A stretch of 64,000 nt of DNA from the NCBI RefSeq assembly GCF_900113185.1, contig NZ_FOZD01000001.1, positions 1,116,001-1,180,000 of the forward strand. The letters run 5' to 3'. The position numbers and the translations under genes were made by a program. Below the pieces are notes generated by a model, which was not told where the DNA came from, made no database searches, and worked only from the letters and a program-made list of their open reading frames with translations. The stretch comes from Agromyces sp. CF514 (GTDB lineage Bacteria > Actinomycetota > Actinomycetes > Actinomycetales > Microbacteriaceae). Of the stretch, positions 24,540 through 31,491 are shown piece after piece. The first letter of the stretch is position 1, and each line of letters starts with the position of its first letter.

Positions 24540-25544
24540 ATGGCCCTCACCGCCAACTCCACCATCGCCGAGTGGCTCGCCGACCCCGCGGGCAAGGCTG
24601 CGCTCGAGGGCCTCGTCGGCCAGGGCGGCGGCTCGACCGACCAGCTCGCCCCCATCGCGGGCCTCCCGCTGCAGCAGCTCGTGGTCATGAGCCAGGGCCA
24701 GATGCCCCAGTCGGCCGTCGACGAGCTCGTCAAGGCGGTCAACGGCGGCGTCATCCCCGAGGAGTCGGGTGAGTCGACGGCCTGGGCCGAGAAGATCACC
24801 TCCGGCCGCTTCGCCGGCAAGACCGTCATCGTCACGGGTGCAGCCTCGGGCATCGGCCGTGCCACCGCGAGCCGCATCGCGCGCGAGGGCGGCCGCGTCG
24901 TCGCCGTCGACATCTCGGCCGAGAAGCTCGATGAGTTCGCCGCCTCGATCCCCGGCGCCGAGATCGTGCCCGTCGCCGGCGACATCACCAAGCAGGAGTC
25001 GATCGACGCGATCGTCGCCGCTGCGGGCGAGCAGATCCACGGCCTCGCGAACGTCGCCGGCATCAACGACGACTTCTCGCCGATCCACGAGACCCCCGAC
25101 GCCATCTGGGACAAGGTCATCGCCGTCAACGTCACCGGCACGTTCAAGCTCACGCGCGCCGTCGTGCCGTTCATGCTCGAGGCCGGCAAGGGCTCGATCG
25201 TCAACGTGGCGAGCGAGGCGGGCCTGCGCGGCAACGCGTCGGGCAACGCCTACACGACCTCGAAGCACGCCGTCGTCGGCCTCACCAAGTCGGCCGCGTT
25301 CATGTACGCGCTCCAGGGCGTGCGCGTGAACGCCGTCGCACCGGGCGGCGTCGCCACGGGCATCCCGTTCCCCCCGCACGTGTCCGAGGTCGGCTCGGCC
25401 CGACTGGCTCCGTTCCAGGGTGCGATCCCCACGGTGGCCACCGCCGAGGCGCTCGCCGCGTCGATCACGTTCCTCCTGAGCGATGACGCCGTGAACATCA
25501 ACGGCGCGATCCTCGCCTCCGACGGCGGCTGGTCGGTGCAGTAA
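24540..25544 (+). CDS. Short-chain dehydrogenase/reductase with an extra N-terminal domain
   Basis: 334 residues, about 85 longer at the N-terminus than a classical SDR. Residues 1-85 are helical and carry no motif I recognise. The SDR core follows: VIVTGAASGIGRATA (nucleotide site from Thr99), DISAEK selecting the cofactor, NVAGIND, Ser225 in NVASEAGL, and the catalytic Tyr238 and Lys242 in AYTTSKHA. It ends with the usual GAILASDGGWSVQ. It should oxidise or reduce an alcohol/ketone with NAD(P). AAAAGGAA precedes ATG 24540. Regulated by the divergent TetR protein in all likelihood. A strong terminator follows. Confidence 0.88.
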   Translation: MALTANSTIAEWLADPAGKAALEGLVGQGGGSTDQLAPIAGLPLQQLVVMSQGQMPQSAVDELVKAVNGGVIPEESGESTAWAEKITSGRFAGKTVIVTGAASGIGRATASRIAREGGRVVAVDISAEKLDEFAASIPGAEIVPVAGDITKQESIDAIVAAAGEQIHGLANVAGINDDFSPIHETPDAIWDKVIAVNVTGTFKLTRAVVPFMLEAGKGSIVNVASEAGLRGNASGNAYTTSKHAVVGLTKSAAFMYALQGVRVNAVAPGGVATGIPFPPHVSEVGSARLAPFQGAIPTVATAEALAASITFLLSDDAVNINGAILASDGGWSVQ

Positions 25545-25578
25545 CCCGGACAGTCGCGACGCCTCAACGGCGTGCTCA

Positions 25579-25615
25579 GGGCGGGGCGGATGCTACGGCA
25601 TCCGCCCCGCCCTTT
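25579..25615 (+). terminator. Rho-independent terminator after the SDR gene
   Basis: A 15-base perfect stem (GGGCGGGGCGGATGC with GCATCCGCCCCGCCC) closed by the loop TACG and followed by TTT lies 35 bases after the SDR stop. Confidence 0.85.
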
Positions 25616-25664
25616 CGCGTGCCCACGGCATCCGGAGCCCGCTCTGCCACTTTGATCGGCCTGC

Positions 25665-25721
25665 TTGACAGATGGTCAGACCAATGCCTACACTCCTTGA
25701 AACGGTGATGGTCTGACCATC
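25665..25721 (+). promoter_or_regulatory. Promoter with two FadR/GntR-type operators
   Basis: TTGACA (25665-25670) and TACACT (25689-25694) form a promoter with an 18-base spacer. TGGTC-A-GACCA (25673-25683) sits in the spacer and GATGGTC-T-GACCATC (25707-25721) just past the start site. Both match the TGGTnnnACCA pattern of FadR-subfamily regulators; the FadR-type gene at 27244 is the likely source. Confidence 0.8.
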
Positions 25722-25791
25722 ATTCCGATACAAGTTTCCGCAAGTTCCGCCTGGCATCGCCCTCGTCGGGAGCACTACAAAGGAGTGGTTC

Positions 25792-27156
25792 GTGAATCTC
25801 TTCACGCTCATGCAGCAGCGCACGGCCGAGGCCGGCCCGATCCGAGTCGGCGTCATCGGCGCAGGCAAGTTCGCCTCGATGTTCCTCACGCAGGCCGTCG
25901 GCAGCGCCAACATCCACGTCGTCGGCGTCGCCGACATCAACGTGCCCAAGGCGAAGGACGCCCTCGCCCGCACCGGGTGGCCGGCCGAGCGCTACGCCGC
26001 GGCGTCGCTCGACGAGGCCGTCCGCACCGGCGGCACCGCGGTCATCGACGACTCCACCGCCCTCATCACGCACCCGAGCGTCGAGGTGATCCTCGAGATC
26101 ACCGGCAACCCGCTCGTCGGCACCTACCACGCGGTCACCGCGATCGACCACGGCAAGCACGTGATCATGGTCAACGTCGAGGCCGACTGCATGGTCGGGC
26201 CGATCCTGCAGCGCCGCGCCCAGGCCGCGGGCGTCATCTACGCGATGGCGTACGGCGACCAGCCCGCCCTCATCTGCGAGCTCGTCGACTGGTGCCGCAC
26301 CGTCGGCTTCGACGTCGTGGCTGCGGGCAAGGGCACCAAGTACCTGCCCGAGTACAACTACTCGACGCCCGACACCGTGTGGAACTACTACGGGTTCAGC
26401 GAGGAGCAGCTCGCGAGCGGCGACTACAACCCCAAGATGTTCAACTCGTTCCTCGACGGCACCAAGTCCGCCATCGAGATGGCGGCCGTCGCCAACGGCA
26501 CCGGCCTCATCCCGCAGGACGAGGGCCTGCTCTTCCCGGCCGCCAGCAAGGACGACCTCCCGACCGTGTTCCGCGAGAACCGCCTGCGCGGCGGCAGCCT
26601 CACGCGCCGCGGCACCGTCGAGATCGCGTCGAGCATGTACCGCGACGGGCGCGAGGTGCCCGACAACCTGCGCTGGGGCGTCTACGTCACCTTCGAGGCC
26701 ACCACCGACTACGCCGTGCAGTGCTTCAAGGAGTACGGCGTGCACACCGACGAGACCGGCCGTTACGGCTCGCTCTACCGGCCGTACCACATGATCGGGC
26801 TCGAACTCGGCGTCTCGATCGCCGCAGCCGTGCTGCGCAACGAGGCGACCGGCGCCCCCACCGGGTTCCGCGGCGACGTCGTGACGACGGCCAAGAAGGA
26901 CCTGCGCGCCGGCGACACGCTCGACGGCGAAGGCGGCTACACGGTCTTCGGCAAGCTCGCGCCCGCACACCTCTCGCTCGACCGCAACGCGCTGCCCCTG
27001 GGCCTCGCGCACGGCGCCAAGCTCATCCGCGACGTCGCCAAGGACCAGACGGTCTCGTGGGACGACGTGCAGCTCGACGAGTCGCAGTTCGCGGTGCAGA
27101 TCCGCCGCGAGCTCGAGGCCGAGTTCCGCGCCGAACACGCCGTCGTCGCGGCCTGA
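25792..27156 (+). CDS. SAF-domain NAD(P)-dependent oxidoreductase (COG4091, homoserine dehydrogenase-like)
   Basis: 454 residues. The N-terminal Rossmann fold (IRVGVIGAGKFASMFLTQA, about residues 16-34) resembles Gfo/Idh/MocA and homoserine dehydrogenases; HAVTAIDHGKHVIMVNVEAD follows the cofactor site. The C-terminal 100 residues (TTAKKDLRAGDTLDGEGGYT, then LPLGLAHGAKLIRDVAKDQ) form an SAF domain. This pairing is the COG4091 arrangement, annotated as predicted homoserine dehydrogenase but without a firmly established reaction. It heads a cluster with a FadR regulator, an organic-acid transporter and an acid-sugar kinase, so it probably works on a hydroxy-acid intermediate there. Aligned start has an AAAGGAG ribosome site. 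Confidence 0.82.
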   Translation: MNLFTLMQQRTAEAGPIRVGVIGAGKFASMFLTQAVGSANIHVVGVADINVPKAKDALARTGWPAERYAAASLDEAVRTGGTAVIDDSTALITHPSVEVILEITGNPLVGTYHAVTAIDHGKHVIMVNVEADCMVGPILQRRAQAAGVIYAMAYGDQPALICELVDWCRTVGFDVVAAGKGTKYLPEYNYSTPDTVWNYYGFSEEQLASGDYNPKMFNSFLDGTKSAIEMAAVANGTGLIPQDEGLLFPAASKDDLPTVFRENRLRGGSLTRRGTVEIASSMYRDGREVPDNLRWGVYVTFEATTDYAVQCFKEYGVHTDETGRYGSLYRPYHMIGLELGVSIAAAVLRNEATGAPTGFRGDVVTTAKKDLRAGDTLDGEGGYTVFGKLAPAHLSLDRNALPLGLAHGAKLIRDVAKDQTVSWDDVQLDESQFAVQIRRELEAEFRAEHAVVAA

Positions 27157-27158
27157 TC

Positions 27159-27190
27159 CGGTCTGACCGTCCGACCATGGAAACTACGAT
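27159..27190 (+). promoter_or_regulatory. Third GntR-type operator and promoter before the regulator gene
   Basis: CGGTC-T-GACCG (27159-27169) repeats the core of the two operators at 25673-25721. It overlaps a -35-like CTGACC, with TACGAT (27185-27190) as -10, so the regulator probably controls itself as well. Confidence 0.65.
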
Positions 27191-27243
27191 GGGGTCACCG
27201 GACTTCACCGCTCGTGGCCTCCGGCAATCGGAGGGGATGACGC

Positions 27244-27984
27244 ATGGCAGCGAACGACGCATGGGAGCCCGTGCAGCGCATTCGAACGTACGAGCAGGTG
27301 ATGGCCCAGATCGAGGAACGCATCCTCGACGGCCGGCTGAAGGCGGGAGACCACCTTCCGAGCGAACGCGACCTCGCAGTCTCGCTCGGGGTCTCCCGGC
27401 CCTCGCTCCGCGAGTCGCTGCGAGTGCTCGAAGCGCTCGGAGTGGTGGAGATCCGTCGTGGCGGCGGGCCCGACGGGGGAGCTGTGCTCCTCTCGACGCC
27501 CGGCGACGGCATGGTCAACCTGCTCAAGCTGCAGATCGCGCTCGCGCACTTCAACTGGACCGATGTCCTCGAGACCCGCCTCGCGCTCGAGGCCTGGAGC
27601 GTCGAGGAGGCCGCCTACCGATCCCAGGATGACGACCACCGAGAGCTCCGAGCCATCCTCGACCGGATGGACGCCCCCGACATCGACTCCGCCGAGTTCA
27701 ACCGACTCGACGCCGCGTTCCACCTGCGGATCGCGGAGGCCACCGGCAACGCGCTCACCGCCCACTTCATGGGCTCGCTGCGCACCGCGATCCATCGCCA
27801 GATGGTGCAGGTCTACGCCGAACTCGTCGACTGGCGCGAGACGGCCAAGACCGTTCGCGCCGAGCACCGCCAGATCCTCGACGACATCGTCGCCGGAGAC
27901 GGCGCGGCAGCGGCCGAGCACGTGCGACGCCACATCACCGATTTCTACCAGATCACCGCTCACGGCGGGAACGCCCGAACCTAG
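27244..27984 (+). CDS. FadR-subfamily GntR transcriptional regulator
   Basis: 246 residues. The winged HTH (residues about 12-75) includes LKAGDHLPSERDLAVSLGVS and RPSLRESLRVLEALGVVEIR, diagnostic of GntR proteins. The all-helical C-terminal FCD domain has the acid/His pattern ETRLALEAWSVEEAA, FNRLDAAFHLRIAEATGN and AEHRQILDDIVAGD, which normally binds a metal and a small carboxylate ligand. This suits sensing of a sugar acid. Preceded by GGAGGGG. The TGGTCnGACCA sites before 25792 and before this gene should be its targets. Confidence 0.88.
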   Translation: MAANDAWEPVQRIRTYEQVMAQIEERILDGRLKAGDHLPSERDLAVSLGVSRPSLRESLRVLEALGVVEIRRGGGPDGGAVLLSTPGDGMVNLLKLQIALAHFNWTDVLETRLALEAWSVEEAAYRSQDDDHRELRAILDRMDAPDIDSAEFNRLDAAFHLRIAEATGNALTAHFMGSLRTAIHRQMVQVYAELVDWRETAKTVRAEHRQILDDIVAGDGAAAAEHVRRHITDFYQITAHGGNART

Positions 27985-27992
27985 TCACCCCG

Positions 27993-28021
27993 GTTCGGCT
28001 CCCGCCGGCTCGAGGCCGAAC
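27993..28021. other. Inverted repeat between regulator and transporter genes
   Basis: GTTCGGC (27993-27999) and GCCGAAC (28015-28021) form a 7-base stem with a 15-base loop just after the regulator stop. No T-run; a weak attenuator or processing hairpin is possible. Confidence 0.35.
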
Positions 28022-28053
28022 GGCTTCAGTATCAAGGGAGATATGAACCGACC

Positions 28054-29385
28054 ATGACGACCATGACCATCGAACCAGCGCAGCGGGCCAAGGACGGCTC
28101 GCCCGACAAGCTCAAGACCGCGATCGGCAGCGCCGTCGGCACGACGATCGAGAACTACGACTTCCTGGCGTACGGCACCGCTGCGGCGCTGTACTTCAAC
28201 ACCGTGTTCTTCCACGCCGAGGACCCCGTCGTCGGCATCCTGCTCGGCTTCGCCACGTTCGGCATCGGGTTCGCGATGCGCCCCCTCGGCGGCGTGATCG
28301 GCGGATACCTCGGCGACCGCATCGGCCGCAAGCCCGTGCTCGTCGGCGCGCTCCTGCTCATGGGCATCTCGACGGTGCTCATCGGCATCCTGCCCACCTA
28401 CGAGCAGGTCGGACTCCTCGCGCCGATCCTCCTCGTGCTCATCCGCGTCATCCAGGGCATCGCGTTCGGTGCCGAGTGGGGCGGCGCGATCCTCATGACC
28501 TTCGAGCACGCGCCCTGGAAGAAGCGGGGCAAGTACACCGCGATCCCGCAGGCGGGCGTGCCCCTGGGCCTGCTCCTCGCGAACCTCGTGTTCCTGTGGT
28601 CCACGAACCTCGACAACGAACTCGCATGGCGCCTGCCGTTCCTGCTCTCGTCGGTGCTCATCGTCGCGGGCCTCATCATCCGCGCGAAGGTCTCGGAGTC
28701 GCCCGAGTTCGTCGAGACGAAGACCGCCGGCCTCACGGTGAAGAACCCCCTCAAGGAGGTCTTCAAGAACGACTGGCGCACGATCCTGCGCGTCATCGCC
28801 CTGCGCCTCGCCGAGTCGGGCGGCTTCTACGTGATCGTGACCTACATGCTCTCGTACCTCACGTCGGGCGACCAGCCGATCACCGACCGCGCGACCGCGC
28901 TCACCGGACTCGTGACCGCTGCGGCCCTCGGCCTCTTCACGACGATCCTGTTCGGCGCGCTCACCGACCGCGTCGGCCGGAAGCCCGTGTACCTCGTCGG
29001 CACGATCGCGCTCATGGCGTTCGCGTTCCCGATGTTCCTGCTCGTCAACACGGGCGTGCCCTACCTCATCGTGTTCGTCTACATCATCGCGATGTCGATC
29101 ATCCACGACTCCCTCGCCGGCACGCAGGGCGCCTGGTTCTCGGAGCTGTTCAGCACGAACGTGCGCTCCTCGGGCGCCTCGATCGGCTACCAGTTCTCTG
29201 CGGCGATCTCGGGCTTCATCCCGCTCATCGCCACGGCCGTCGCGATCCCGCTCGGCTGGGGCGGCGTCGCGTGGGTCTACCTCGCCTGCGGCCTGCTGGG
29301 CTTCATCGGAACCGTGCTCACCCGCGAGACGTGGGGCAAGAAGGAGCGCGCCGAGGTCGACGCGATCATCGCCCGCTCGTCCTGA
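28054..29385 (+). CDS. MHS-family MFS transporter (organic/sugar acid)
   Basis: 443 residues, 12 membrane helices. The metabolite:H+ symporter family is shown by GTTIENYDFLAYG at the first helix, GFAMRPLGGVIGGYLGDRIGRKP between helices 2 and 3, VIQGIAFGAEWGGAILM, and FGALTDRVGRKPVYLVG after helix 8. Characterised members carry shikimate, citrate, alpha-ketoglutarate or proline/betaine. Between the FadR-type regulator and the acid-sugar kinase it is the natural entry route for the pathway substrate, presumably a hydroxy acid. Confidence 0.88.
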   Translation: MTTMTIEPAQRAKDGSPDKLKTAIGSAVGTTIENYDFLAYGTAAALYFNTVFFHAEDPVVGILLGFATFGIGFAMRPLGGVIGGYLGDRIGRKPVLVGALLLMGISTVLIGILPTYEQVGLLAPILLVLIRVIQGIAFGAEWGGAILMTFEHAPWKKRGKYTAIPQAGVPLGLLLANLVFLWSTNLDNELAWRLPFLLSSVLIVAGLIIRAKVSESPEFVETKTAGLTVKNPLKEVFKNDWRTILRVIALRLAESGGFYVIVTYMLSYLTSGDQPITDRATALTGLVTAAALGLFTTILFGALTDRVGRKPVYLVGTIALMAFAFPMFLLVNTGVPYLIVFVYIIAMSIIHDSLAGTQGAWFSELFSTNVRSSGASIGYQFSAAISGFIPLIATAVAIPLGWGGVAWVYLACGLLGFIGTVLTRETWGKKERAEVDAIIARSS

Positions 29386-29390
29386 ACGAG

Positions 29391-29424
29391 CGGTGGGGCG
29401 GATGCCGCGGCATCCGCCCCACCG
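29391..29424 (+). terminator. Perfect hairpin after the MHS transporter gene
   Basis: A 34-base perfect palindrome (each arm CGGTGGGGCGGATGCCG or its complement, no loop base) begins 5 bases after the stop. It has no T-run, and the kinase gene follows in the same direction, so it may only attenuate transcription or protect the mRNA end. Confidence 0.6.
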
Positions 29425-29499
29425 ACACCCCGCGTCGCGCGGGCGACCGTCGTCGCTCGGCACGCTCGAAGCCATTCCGCTCATCGAAGGAATCACGCC

Positions 29500-30759
29500 A
29501 TGAAGACCATCGTCCTCGACGACGACCCCACGGGCACGCAGTCCGCGACGGGCGTCACGGTGCTGCTCGAGAGCAGCGCCGACCTGCTCGCCGAGGCGCT
29601 CGGCCGGGCCGACAGCGTGTACGTGCAGACCAACAGCCGCGCCCTGCCCGAGGCCGAGGCGGTCGCCCTGACGCGCCGCATCCGGGCCGACGGCGAGGCC
29701 GCTGCCGAGCGGCTCGGCGTCGACGTGCGCTTCGTGCTGCGCGGCGACTCGACGTTGCGCGGCCACGTGTTCGCCGAGACCGAGGTGTTCCTCGACGGCG
29801 ACGCGATCATGCTGTTCGTGCCGGCGTTCCCCGACGGCGGCCGCACGACGCGTGACGGCGTGCACCACGTGCGCGTGGCGGGCGTCGACGTGCCCGCGCA
29901 CGAGAGCGAGTACGCCGACGACCCCGTGTTCGGATTCACGACGGGGGTCATGCTCGACTACCTCGCCGAGAAGTCGCCGCGCGCCGCGCGCACGGTCGGC
30001 CTCGACGAGGTTCGCGCCGGCGGGCTCGCCGACGTGCTCGCCGCGGCGACGCCCGGCACGGTCATCGCTCCCGACGCGGCCACGGCCGAGGACATCTCGG
30101 CGATCGCCCGCGCCGTCGAAGCGGCCACCGCTGCCGGCGCGGACATCGTCGTGCGCAGTGCCGCGCCGCTCGCGGCCGAGCTCGCCGGCGTTGCGAGCCG
30201 GGGCCTGCTCGAGACCCCGCTCGTCGCCGAGCCCGGCCCCGTGCTGCTCGTGTGCGGTTCGCACACGGCCGGCGCGACCGCGCAGCTCGAGCCCGTCGTC
30301 GCCGCCTGGGGCGCGGCATCCGTCATCGACACCGCCGCGGCGTTGGCCGATGCCGTCGCAGCCGGGCACGCGGCCGCGGCCGCGGCGCACGCCCGCCTCG
30401 ATGCCGGGCCGCTCGCGATCGTCACGACCGAGCGCGAGCGCTCCGCGACGCACAACACCCTCGACCACGGCGAACGCGTCATGCGCGCCCTCACGACCGC
30501 GGTGCGCGACCTGCTGCCCGAGGTCTCGGTGGTCGTGTCGAAGGGCGGCATCACCTCGGCCGAGGTCGCGCGCACCGGCATCGGCGCGACCTCGGCCGTC
30601 GTGCTCGGCCAGGTCGTGCCGGGCGTGTCGGTGTGGAGTCTCCGGGCCCACGACGGCCGCGAGATCCTCTACGTCGTCGTGCCCGGCAACGTCGGCGACC
30701 CCGACACGCTCACGACGGTGCTCGACGCGCTCTCGCTGCGCGCGCCTGTGAGCGCCTGA
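29500..30759 (+). CDS. Four-carbon acid sugar kinase-like protein (DUF1537/OtnK family)
   Basis: 419 residues, full length for the family. N-terminal domain: VLDDDPTGTQSATGVTVLL with the conserved DDxTG motif (Asp7-Gly12), YVQTNSRALP, and VLRGDSTLRGHV, which binds the sugar acid. C-terminal nucleotide-binding domain: VLLVCGSHTAGATAQLEPV, VSKGGITSAEVARTGIG and the end YVVVPGNVGDPDTL. Family members phosphorylate threonate, erythronate, 2-oxo-tetronate or related C4 acids with ATP. The downstream enzymes of the known routes (PdxA2, or OtnC with OtnI) are absent here. A GAAGGAA ribosome site precedes the ATG. Confidence 0.88.
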   Translation: MKTIVLDDDPTGTQSATGVTVLLESSADLLAEALGRADSVYVQTNSRALPEAEAVALTRRIRADGEAAAERLGVDVRFVLRGDSTLRGHVFAETEVFLDGDAIMLFVPAFPDGGRTTRDGVHHVRVAGVDVPAHESEYADDPVFGFTTGVMLDYLAEKSPRAARTVGLDEVRAGGLADVLAAATPGTVIAPDAATAEDISAIARAVEAATAAGADIVVRSAAPLAAELAGVASRGLLETPLVAEPGPVLLVCGSHTAGATAQLEPVVAAWGAASVIDTAAALADAVAAGHAAAAAAHARLDAGPLAIVTTERERSATHNTLDHGERVMRALTTAVRDLLPEVSVVVSKGGITSAEVARTGIGATSAVVLGQVVPGVSVWSLRAHDGREILYVVVPGNVGDPDTLTTVLDALSLRAPVSA

Positions 30760-30835
30760 CGCGTGTTCCTCGCTGCGGGGCGGCCCCGGCGCCCTGCACC
30801 TTCGCGCGCGACACGCCGCACCCACCCCACCGAGG

Positions 30836-30883
30836 GGTCGCGATGTGCTGGTTCCCGGCATCCGGATCCAGCACATCGTGACC
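30836..30883. other. Long inverted repeat between kinase and MarR genes
   Basis: GGTCGCGATGTGCTGG (30836-30851) pairs with CCAGCACATCGTGACC (30868-30883), 16 positions with one G-T pair and a 16-base loop. No T-run. Could terminate the kinase transcript or be an operator or repeat element. Confidence 0.6.
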
Positions 30884-30984
30884 GCTCGGCGTCAGCACGC
30901 CAGTGCGTCGTGAGCGCCCGGGCCGGGCGCAGGGGCGGGCCAGGGCAGGAGTGCGAGGCCCCGCGGTTCGCTACTGTCGAGAGC

Positions 30985-31491
30985 GTGAACCCCAGACCGA
31001 GCGAGCGAGACGACGAGGTCGACCTGCTGATCGACGCGTGGTCACGCCGGCTGCCCGACGCCGACCTGTCGCCGCTCGACGTCATGTCGCGCCTGCGTCG
31101 TGCGGCGAACCGGCTGTCGAAGCTGCGCGCCGCCGCGTTCAGCGACGCCGGCCTCGCGTCATGGGAGTTCGACGTGCTCGCCGCGCTGCGTCGGCAGGAC
31201 GACCCGCACGAGCTGAGCCCGGCGCACCTGATCTCTGCGACCATGATCGGCAGCGCGGCCATGACGAACCGGCTCGACAACCTCGCCGCCCGCGGGCTCG
31301 TCGAGCGCCGCCCGAACCCCCGCGACGGGCGCAGCGTGCTCGTGCGCCTCACCGACGAGGGAACGGCCCGCGTCGACGAGGCCATGCGCGGACTCGTCGC
31401 CCGTGAGGCCGTCGAGCTCGAGGCCCTCACGCGCGACGAGCAGGCGACGCTCTCGAGGCTGCTGCGACGATTGAGCGACGAGCCGCACTGA
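30985..31491 (+). CDS. MarR-family transcriptional regulator
   Basis: 168 residues from GTG 30985. TACTGT seven bases before the GTG indicates leaderless transcription and fixes the start. The winged HTH includes SPAHLISATMIGSAAMTNRL and RGLVERRPNPRDGRSVLVRL with the characteristic DGR wing. Helices at both ends would dimerise. The target is unclear: it stands alone between the kinase gene and a recombinase-like gene, and the nearest palindrome is at 30836-30883. Confidence 0.85.
   Translation: MNPRPSERDDEVDLLIDAWSRRLPDADLSPLDVMSRLRRAANRLSKLRAAAFSDAGLASWEFDVLAALRRQDDPHELSPAHLISATMIGSAAMTNRLDNLAARGLVERRPNPRDGRSVLVRLTDEGTARVDEAMRGLVAREAVELEALTRDEQATLSRLLRRLSDEPH

Follow-up and report, generated by a model that had tools for sequence, protein, structure and literature searches.

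DUF1537 kinases take part in several described routes of sugar-acid breakdown. The tetronate pathway leads from LtnD or DenD through OtnI and OtnK to OtnC (Zhang 2016, as cited in PMC12540250 and PMC10580937), and OtnK is reported to act on an unphosphorylated oxo-acid (PMC12540250). The subject of this study is a group of four genes in a window of 64 kb (the whole stretch of DNA analysed, 64,000 nucleotides) from the 4.3-Mb genome of the soil actinobacterium Agromyces sp. CF514, in which a DUF1537 kinase gene is accompanied by genes for a DXR-II-like oxidoreductase (DRL), a FadR-type regulator and a transporter. A preliminary description of this locus had listed DUF1537 routes that continue with PdxA2, or with OtnC and OtnI. 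Two others have to be added to them: LtnD with 2-OtnK and 2-OtnC, a three-step route of Arthrobacter in which 2-OtnC has an F_bP_aldolase domain (Guo 2024, cited in PMC12540250), and apiose catabolism, in which OiaK is described as working with RuBisCO-like proteins (PMC11747546, PMC6302742). We propose, with a probability of roughly 0.6, that the four genes form a repressible operon for a short sugar acid in which DRL acts first and the kinase second.

All four genes lie on the + strand between 25792 and 30759, in one direction and with the domains that had been ascribed to them. The first (25792..27156, GTG start) encodes DRL, a COG4091-type, DLO2-like NAD(P)-dependent oxidoreductase with a C-terminal SAF domain. 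It is followed by genes for a regulator with GntR and FCD domains (27244..27984), the probable operon repressor, whose orthologue co-occurs with an operator; for an MHS-type MFS transporter (28054..29385), by its domains and TIGR00883 score the probable acid importer; and for a DUF1537 acid-sugar kinase with SBD_N and NBD_C domains (29500..30759), of a subfamily outside OtnK, DtnK and OiaK. An acid-sugar catabolic operon behind one promoter is supported. In the scheme we envisage, the transporter would import a short sugar acid and DRL would oxidise it to an oxo-acid, doing the job of LtnD and, in related loci, perhaps that of OtnI as well. The kinase would then phosphorylate this oxo-acid, and its product would reach central metabolism once decarboxylated or cleaved, either spontaneously or by an unlinked enzyme. 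The FadR-type protein would repress the promoter via both operators until released by an acid metabolite.

The order of the two enzymes is suggested by related loci. A sample of 297 genomes from the order yielded 48 DRL genes with high scores and 14 with low ones, whose positions relative to DUF1537 genes were compared by measured distance in the relevant genomes and by eye in the other high-scoring DRL genomes (different contigs). The low-scoring genes (48-97 bits), a second and distant DRL subfamily, all lie 1.1-2.9 kb from a DUF1537 gene (14/14, among the matches listed). We read 11 second-subfamily loci, namely 10 of these 14, with G214, G228, G282 and G326 left out, and one from the genus (L017). 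Every one of the 11 holds an OtnK homologue (36-43% identical to YgbK) and an OtnC homologue (36-45% identical to YgbL), and 10 of the 11 kinases exceed the OtnK equivalog cut-off of 350 bits, that of L127 being just under it (335). Neither LtnD nor OtnI was found at any of the 11 loci at E 1e-5, SDR-type DenD not having been searched for as such. DeoR regulators recur at these loci, and gluconate/citrate-type permeases stand beside DRL or within the locus in at least six (L119, L122, L123, L124, L126 and L128), as in the E. coli ygb cluster. The same arrangement extends to the DRL subfamily of the window: a planctomycete metagenome bin (L055) has a DRL 60% identical to the window's, directly preceded by OtnK (516.6 bits, cut-off 350) and OtnC (290.3 bits, cut-off 250) and followed by a TRAP transporter and then a DeoR-type regulator (by eye), with no match to LtnD or OtnI in the locus. 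Since OtnK and OtnC stand at the second-subfamily loci without LtnD or OtnI, DRL there appears to occupy the place of both. Its co-location with OtnK and OtnC in the second subfamily and in L055 suggests that DRL most likely makes the oxo-acid substrate of the kinase, in place of the usual dehydrogenase and perhaps of the isomerase too. The earlier proposal that the SAF-domain enzyme acts on the substrate or product of the kinase, in an unrecognised route, survives as to two enzymes in series in a route so far undescribed, and the comparative evidence narrows it to DRL probably before the kinase. At two second-subfamily loci (L120, L121) DRL, OtnK and OtnC lie by an alpha-arabinofuranosidase-like gene (by eye) and ABC sugar-transporter-like genes.

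In the published division of the DXR-II family, DXR-II itself stands beside two uncharacterised clades, DLO1 and DLO2; four DLO representatives did not complement a DXR-defective mutant (PMC3847144). COG4091 had been described as having no settled reaction; this needs qualifying, in that one of its clades is DXR-II (3upl/3upy) and it is the DLO2-like clade resembling the window protein that is uncharacterised in that account. According to the same source, the substrate and fosmidomycin site of DXR-II includes Lys191, Lys193 and Thr229, the last invariant in DXR-II, and Pro, Ser or Ala at position 229 marks DLO2. The window protein has a DRL_cat domain (PF21135, 191.1 bits, cut-off 27), a GFO_IDH_MocA match, an N-terminal Rossmann domain and a C-terminal SAF domain (PF08666, 28.0 bits, cut-off 21), and its model matches 3upl, which places it among the DRL/COG4091 oxidoreductases. 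The closest solved structures are those of Brucella DXR-II (3upy/3upl), to which it is about 32% identical over 407 aligned residues; its AlphaFold model (mean pLDDT, the predicted local distance difference test, 94.1) matches these structures with template-modelling scores of 0.89/0.92. K191 and K228 are kept, K193 is replaced by T182 and T229 by S226. A true, methylerythritol phosphate-forming DXR-II was rejected on account of the replacement of K193 and T229 of the substrate site. With Ser at position 229 and Leu at position 250, both fitting DLO2, the protein is a candidate member of the DLO2 branch of COG4091. An acidic residue (Asp) at the end of the second Rossmann strand favours NAD; Asp48, which occupies this position, is nearly invariant among 45 relatives and suggests NAD as the cofactor, and DRL is probably NAD-dependent, NAD being the catabolic cofactor. 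Two plasmid-borne DRLs, in Ligilactobacillus salivarius (L098, NZ_CP101686.1, 14556-15806) and Priestia aryabhattai (L099, NZ_CP128554.1, 8950-10290), keep K191, K193 and T229. Their surroundings hold glucitol phosphotransferase-system, transketolase and fructose-6-phosphate aldolase genes, or an FGGY kinase and sugar-binding regulators, and DXR-II may serve catabolism here, with methylerythritol as one candidate substrate.

These residues also bear on the reverse order, in which the DUF1537 kinase would phosphorylate the acid first and DRL would then oxidise the phosphate ester, helping to decarboxylate it, in place of PdxA2. Relatives of DXR-II do handle phosphate esters, the window DRL retains K191 and K228, its exchange of T229 for S is conservative, and PdxA is absent from the genome. 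We nevertheless regard this order as unlikely: the window DRL has lost K193, and the DUF1537-paired second subfamily, with G, S or T at position 193, has A at 228 (Lys228 lost) and D at 229, a substrate site that would be poorly suited to phosphate. The second subfamily is also found alongside OtnK, whose substrate is the unphosphorylated oxo-acid. Moreover, in a genome-wide search of the relatives' genomes for DUF1537 (L032 left out), a Cryobacterium genome (L025) with a DRL 82% identical to the window's was found to be without any DUF1537 gene. The unphosphorylated substrate of OtnK, the second-subfamily residues and the Cryobacterium genome all speak for DRL as the first enzyme, working on the free acid.

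The window kinase matches PF07005 (150.4 bits) and PF17042 (78.3 bits), with a profile match to 4xfm/4xfr and a fold match to 5dmh. In a 27-row tree, to which a long-branch warning applies, it groups with kinases beside GarR-like genes on two Firmicutes plasmids (L098, L100) and with a DUF1537 kinase beside a class II fructose-bisphosphate aldolase-like gene on a Rhodococcus plasmid (L101). These neighbours, taken together with the Arthrobacter 2-OtnK route, raise by analogy the prospect of 2-oxo acids as possible substrates for this group of kinases. No match to the 3-oxo-isoapionate kinase model OiaK (NF042436, cut-off 700 bits) was obtained for the window kinase at E 0.001. This last result touches a second alternative, that DRL works like DXR-II in reverse on a branched sugar acid, combining its oxidation with the migration of a carbon group to give a 3-oxo acid for the kinase, as ApnO and OiaK do on apionate. 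Its appeal lies in the characterised sister clade being a reductoisomerase (PMC3847144) and in apiose catabolism, which is described as joining a D-apionate oxidoisomerase to a 3-oxoisoapionate kinase (PMC11747546). It remains improbable in view of the missing OiaK match, the lack of a RuBisCO-like gene in the genome and the changed key DXR-II residues of DRL. For the window, the apionate route itself was rejected, there being neither an OiaK match nor RuBisCO-like genes.

Enzymes for the last step were sought across the genome. Searches that included a positive control returned no PdxA, by which the PdxA2 route was rejected, and no RuBisCO-like gene. No match to E. coli OtnI was found in the genome, in a search run without a positive control. 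No convincing OtnC was found among the three Aldolase_II genes: at 374.3 and 373.8 bits, two exceed the cut-off of 251 for L-ribulose-5-phosphate 4-epimerase (AraD), and the remaining one looks, by eye, like a rhamnulose-type fusion. Three F_bP_aldolase genes, considered as possible sources of the last enzyme, all lie away from the operon, two of them in amino-sugar-like or glucoside-like clusters by eye. In line with the absence of PdxA2, OtnC and OtnI that the preliminary description had reported for the locus, none of them was found in these searches. The lack of a linked lyase is no peculiarity of this operon, for the Firmicutes loci whose kinases come closest to that of the window (L098, L100) likewise have no OtnC-type gene annotated adjoining; they combine a dehydrogenase, a kinase, a permease and a GntR regulator.

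The operon and its control region recur in relatives. The nearest named relative is Agromyces allii, with a DRL 98% identical (among the best 80 of 577 relatives). In a genus sample of 60 genomes, 8 carry DRL, as 9 genes in all, each with a DUF1537 gene no more than 5 kb away. Two exact 11-bp palindromes of the form TGGTCnGACCA precede the window DRL: operator 1, TGGTCAGACCA (25673..25683), which is kept before DRL in relatives, and operator 2, TGGTCTGACCA (25709..25719), 36 bp beyond it. Operator 1 falls within the spacer of a promoter-like match (TTGACA, 18 nt, TACACT; 25665..25694, + strand), a consensus match only and the sole one in 25540-31000. The 64-kb window has 2 copies of the motif TGGTNNNACCA versus 0.23 expected (2 of 100 shuffles reach 2), and both sit at this promoter-like match before DRL. 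The regulator matches both PF00392 and PF07729 and belongs to the FadR/FCD family, with predicted binding to an operator of TGGTNNNACCA type. We compared 86 loci, after L012 and L014 were dropped as coming from the same genomes as L020 and L042; gene presence was scored by tblastn, a FadR orthologue by more than 55% identity, and the operator within 250 nt before DRL. The motif TGGTNNNACCA precedes DRL in 26 of the 30 loci with a FadR orthologue versus 0 of the 56 without, and of those 30 loci, 26 have the transporter orthologue and 24 that of the kinase. Paired operators 32-37 bp apart were seen again in several relatives.

The preliminary description had the four genes linked by repeated operators. 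That stands for the two perfect sites before DRL but not further along: the transporter and kinase are not preceded by repeats, and the sites at the regulator (two overlapping, 27159-27177) and the transporter (one, 28044-28054) are degenerate, with 2 mismatches each. Sites with 2 mismatches are no commoner in the window than chance (30 versus 30.5 in shuffles), and the 130 nt preceding each of 24 kinase genes, that of the window included, are free of the operator. Elsewhere in the genome three exact copies occur, two at a locus with FadR and LldD-like genes and one inside a glycosyltransferase-like open reading frame (both places named by eye), and the motif is therefore read as a general FadR/LldR-type operator. 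The check that had been put forward against the new route, otnC or otnI under the same operator elsewhere, was run and turned up these copies alone; co-regulation of the missing enzymes from another site was rejected, the three copies not being at such genes. The pair at G000:C1:492771-492804 (L114, 8772-8805) lies by another FadR-type gene adjoining a reading frame for an LldD-like L-lactate dehydrogenase, and cross-talk between the two FadR-type regulators is possible.

DRL has other partners as well. In the Cryobacterium locus its neighbours are a KdgT permease, an HpcH/HpaI-type aldolase, a NIPSNAP protein and another FadR-type gene. L025, L047, L049, L052 and L070 combine DRL with a FadR-type gene and an HpcH/HpaI-type aldolase, in most cases together with NIPSNAP (KdgT permease in L025 and L049), and would represent another, kinase-free DRL route. 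At L079, L096 and, on rhizobial plasmids, L102 and L104, the genes after DRL encode a small ABM protein and a protein like beta-hydroxyacid dehydrogenase, with TRAP transporter genes in several; a PfkB kinase gene precedes DRL in L102 and L104. Such diversity is what would be expected were DRL and the DUF1537 kinase to serve separate compounds and be merely co-regulated: most genomes of the window's DRL subfamily pair DRL with KdgT and an HpaI-type aldolase, with TRAP and a beta-hydroxyacid dehydrogenase, or with a PfkB kinase, and the transporter gene is set apart from the kinase gene by a hairpin, both in the window and in several relatives. The recurrence of the DUF1537 pairing in the second DRL subfamily and the pairing of DRL with OtnK/OtnC in L055 speak against it, and we hold it to be the least probable of the alternatives.

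Several further observations weigh against a DRL that supplies an oxo-acid to the window kinase, as does the limit on the LtnD and OtnI searches given above. The window kinase falls far below the models for 3-oxo-tetronate kinase (OtnK, NF043035; 44.1 bits, cut-off 350) and D-threonate kinase (DtnK, NF047819; 79.0 bits, cut-off 450), and it is only about 26-35% identical, over part of its length, to the second-subfamily OtnKs, so that their substrate need not hold for it. For the second-subfamily OtnC proteins that were scanned (7 of 11), OtnC is the best model at 188-233 bits, below its cut-off of 250. The search for COG4091 next to DUF1537 in the order, which had been suggested as a check, gave among 48 high-scoring DRLs a single one, that of the window, with a DUF1537 gene within 10 kb (among the matches listed); one further high-scoring DRL, in G315, has one at 10.8 kb. 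Among the 30 FadR loci, 4 have DRL and transporter without a kinase orthologue and 2 have neither, and the kinase orthologue occurs in none of the 56 loci without FadR; with the 1 in 48, this confines the pairing in the window's DRL subfamily mainly to Microbacteriaceae and a few neighbours. A strict replacement of both LtnD and OtnI also fails to predict L087, where a DLO2-type DRL is followed by OtnI/Hyi-like and LtnD/GarR-like genes, or the rhizobial DRL relatives with an ABM protein, an NAD(P)-dependent oxidoreductase and a PfkB kinase.

Other features of the locus were noted. The best model for the transporter is TIGR00883 (MHS) at 357 bits, under the cut-off of 443.45, so that it is not assigned to MHS by that model, and it passes the general MFS models (MFS_1/Sugar_tr). 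Between transporter and kinase lies a GC-rich hairpin with no T run (29392..29423), a possible partial terminator or attenuator. It is nearly identical to a hairpin at 25580-25611, after an upstream SDR gene, both being 32 nt long and GC-rich, and hairpins at the same place before the kinase were found in many relatives too. The SDR gene itself (24540-25544) was left out of the unit because, among the loci compared, its orthologue precedes DRL only in A. allii (L014 and L042, one genome). An open frame of 963 codons on the - strand (27985-30876), antisense to transporter and kinase, is a high-GC artefact. In two relatives the kinase is followed by further genes, in L041 (14277-17780) for a TIM-barrel isomerase, an SDR and a dihydroxyacetone kinase, and in L035 (14094-19174) for a GMC oxidoreductase, an aldehyde dehydrogenase-like protein and a split transketolase; these give hints of the substrate and product.

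Taken more broadly, DXR-II-like proteins (DRL/DLO) could represent a third type of entry into DUF1537 pathways, a reading we put somewhat below even odds. A single NAD-dependent protein would turn a tetronate or branched relative directly into the 3-oxo acid, either by oxidising C3 itself or by coupling an oxidation to a rearrangement, making LtnD/DenD and OtnI unneeded, and the window operon would be a kinase-divergent offshoot with a new acid and an unlinked last step. The DLO side of the family is left without a reaction in the account of PMC3847144, and the co-location with OtnK and OtnC in two DRL lineages makes tetronates, with NAD+, its candidate substrates. Among the papers listed in our literature searches, none joins DRL/COG4091 to threonate, erythronate or DUF1537; mention in Zhang 2016, Carter 2018 or Guo 2024 is possible. 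If true, the proposal would show how a reductoisomerase fold of the isoprenoid type came to serve the catabolism of sugar acids, or the reverse, and would help to annotate the dehydrogenase and isomerase steps that are missing from many actinobacterial tetronate clusters.

Set beside the known systems, the locus shares with Brucella DXR-II (3upl/3upy) the whole fold and the SAF domain of its DRL, and differs in having T for K193, S for T229, a probable preference for NAD over NADPH, and catabolic neighbours. With the D-threonate route of DtnK and PdxA2 it has a DUF1537 kinase in common, whereas its kinase scores 79 bits against 450 and its genome is without PdxA. The LtnD, 2-OtnK and 2-OtnC route is approached through the grouping of the window kinase with the aldolase-linked L101 kinase and the GarR-linked L098 and L100 kinases; here, by contrast, no aldolase is linked and the dehydrogenase is DRL, and the L101 kinase is not established as a 2-OtnK. 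The tetronate pathway (LtnD/DenD, OtnI, OtnK, OtnC; E. coli ygbJKLMN) likewise clusters a permease, a dehydrogenase, a DUF1537 kinase and a dedicated regulator, and its OtnK and OtnC have homologues with DRL in all 11 second-subfamily loci and in L055. The window departs from it in its lack of OtnC and OtnI and in a kinase outside the OtnK model, with DRL apparently in the place of LtnD and OtnI.

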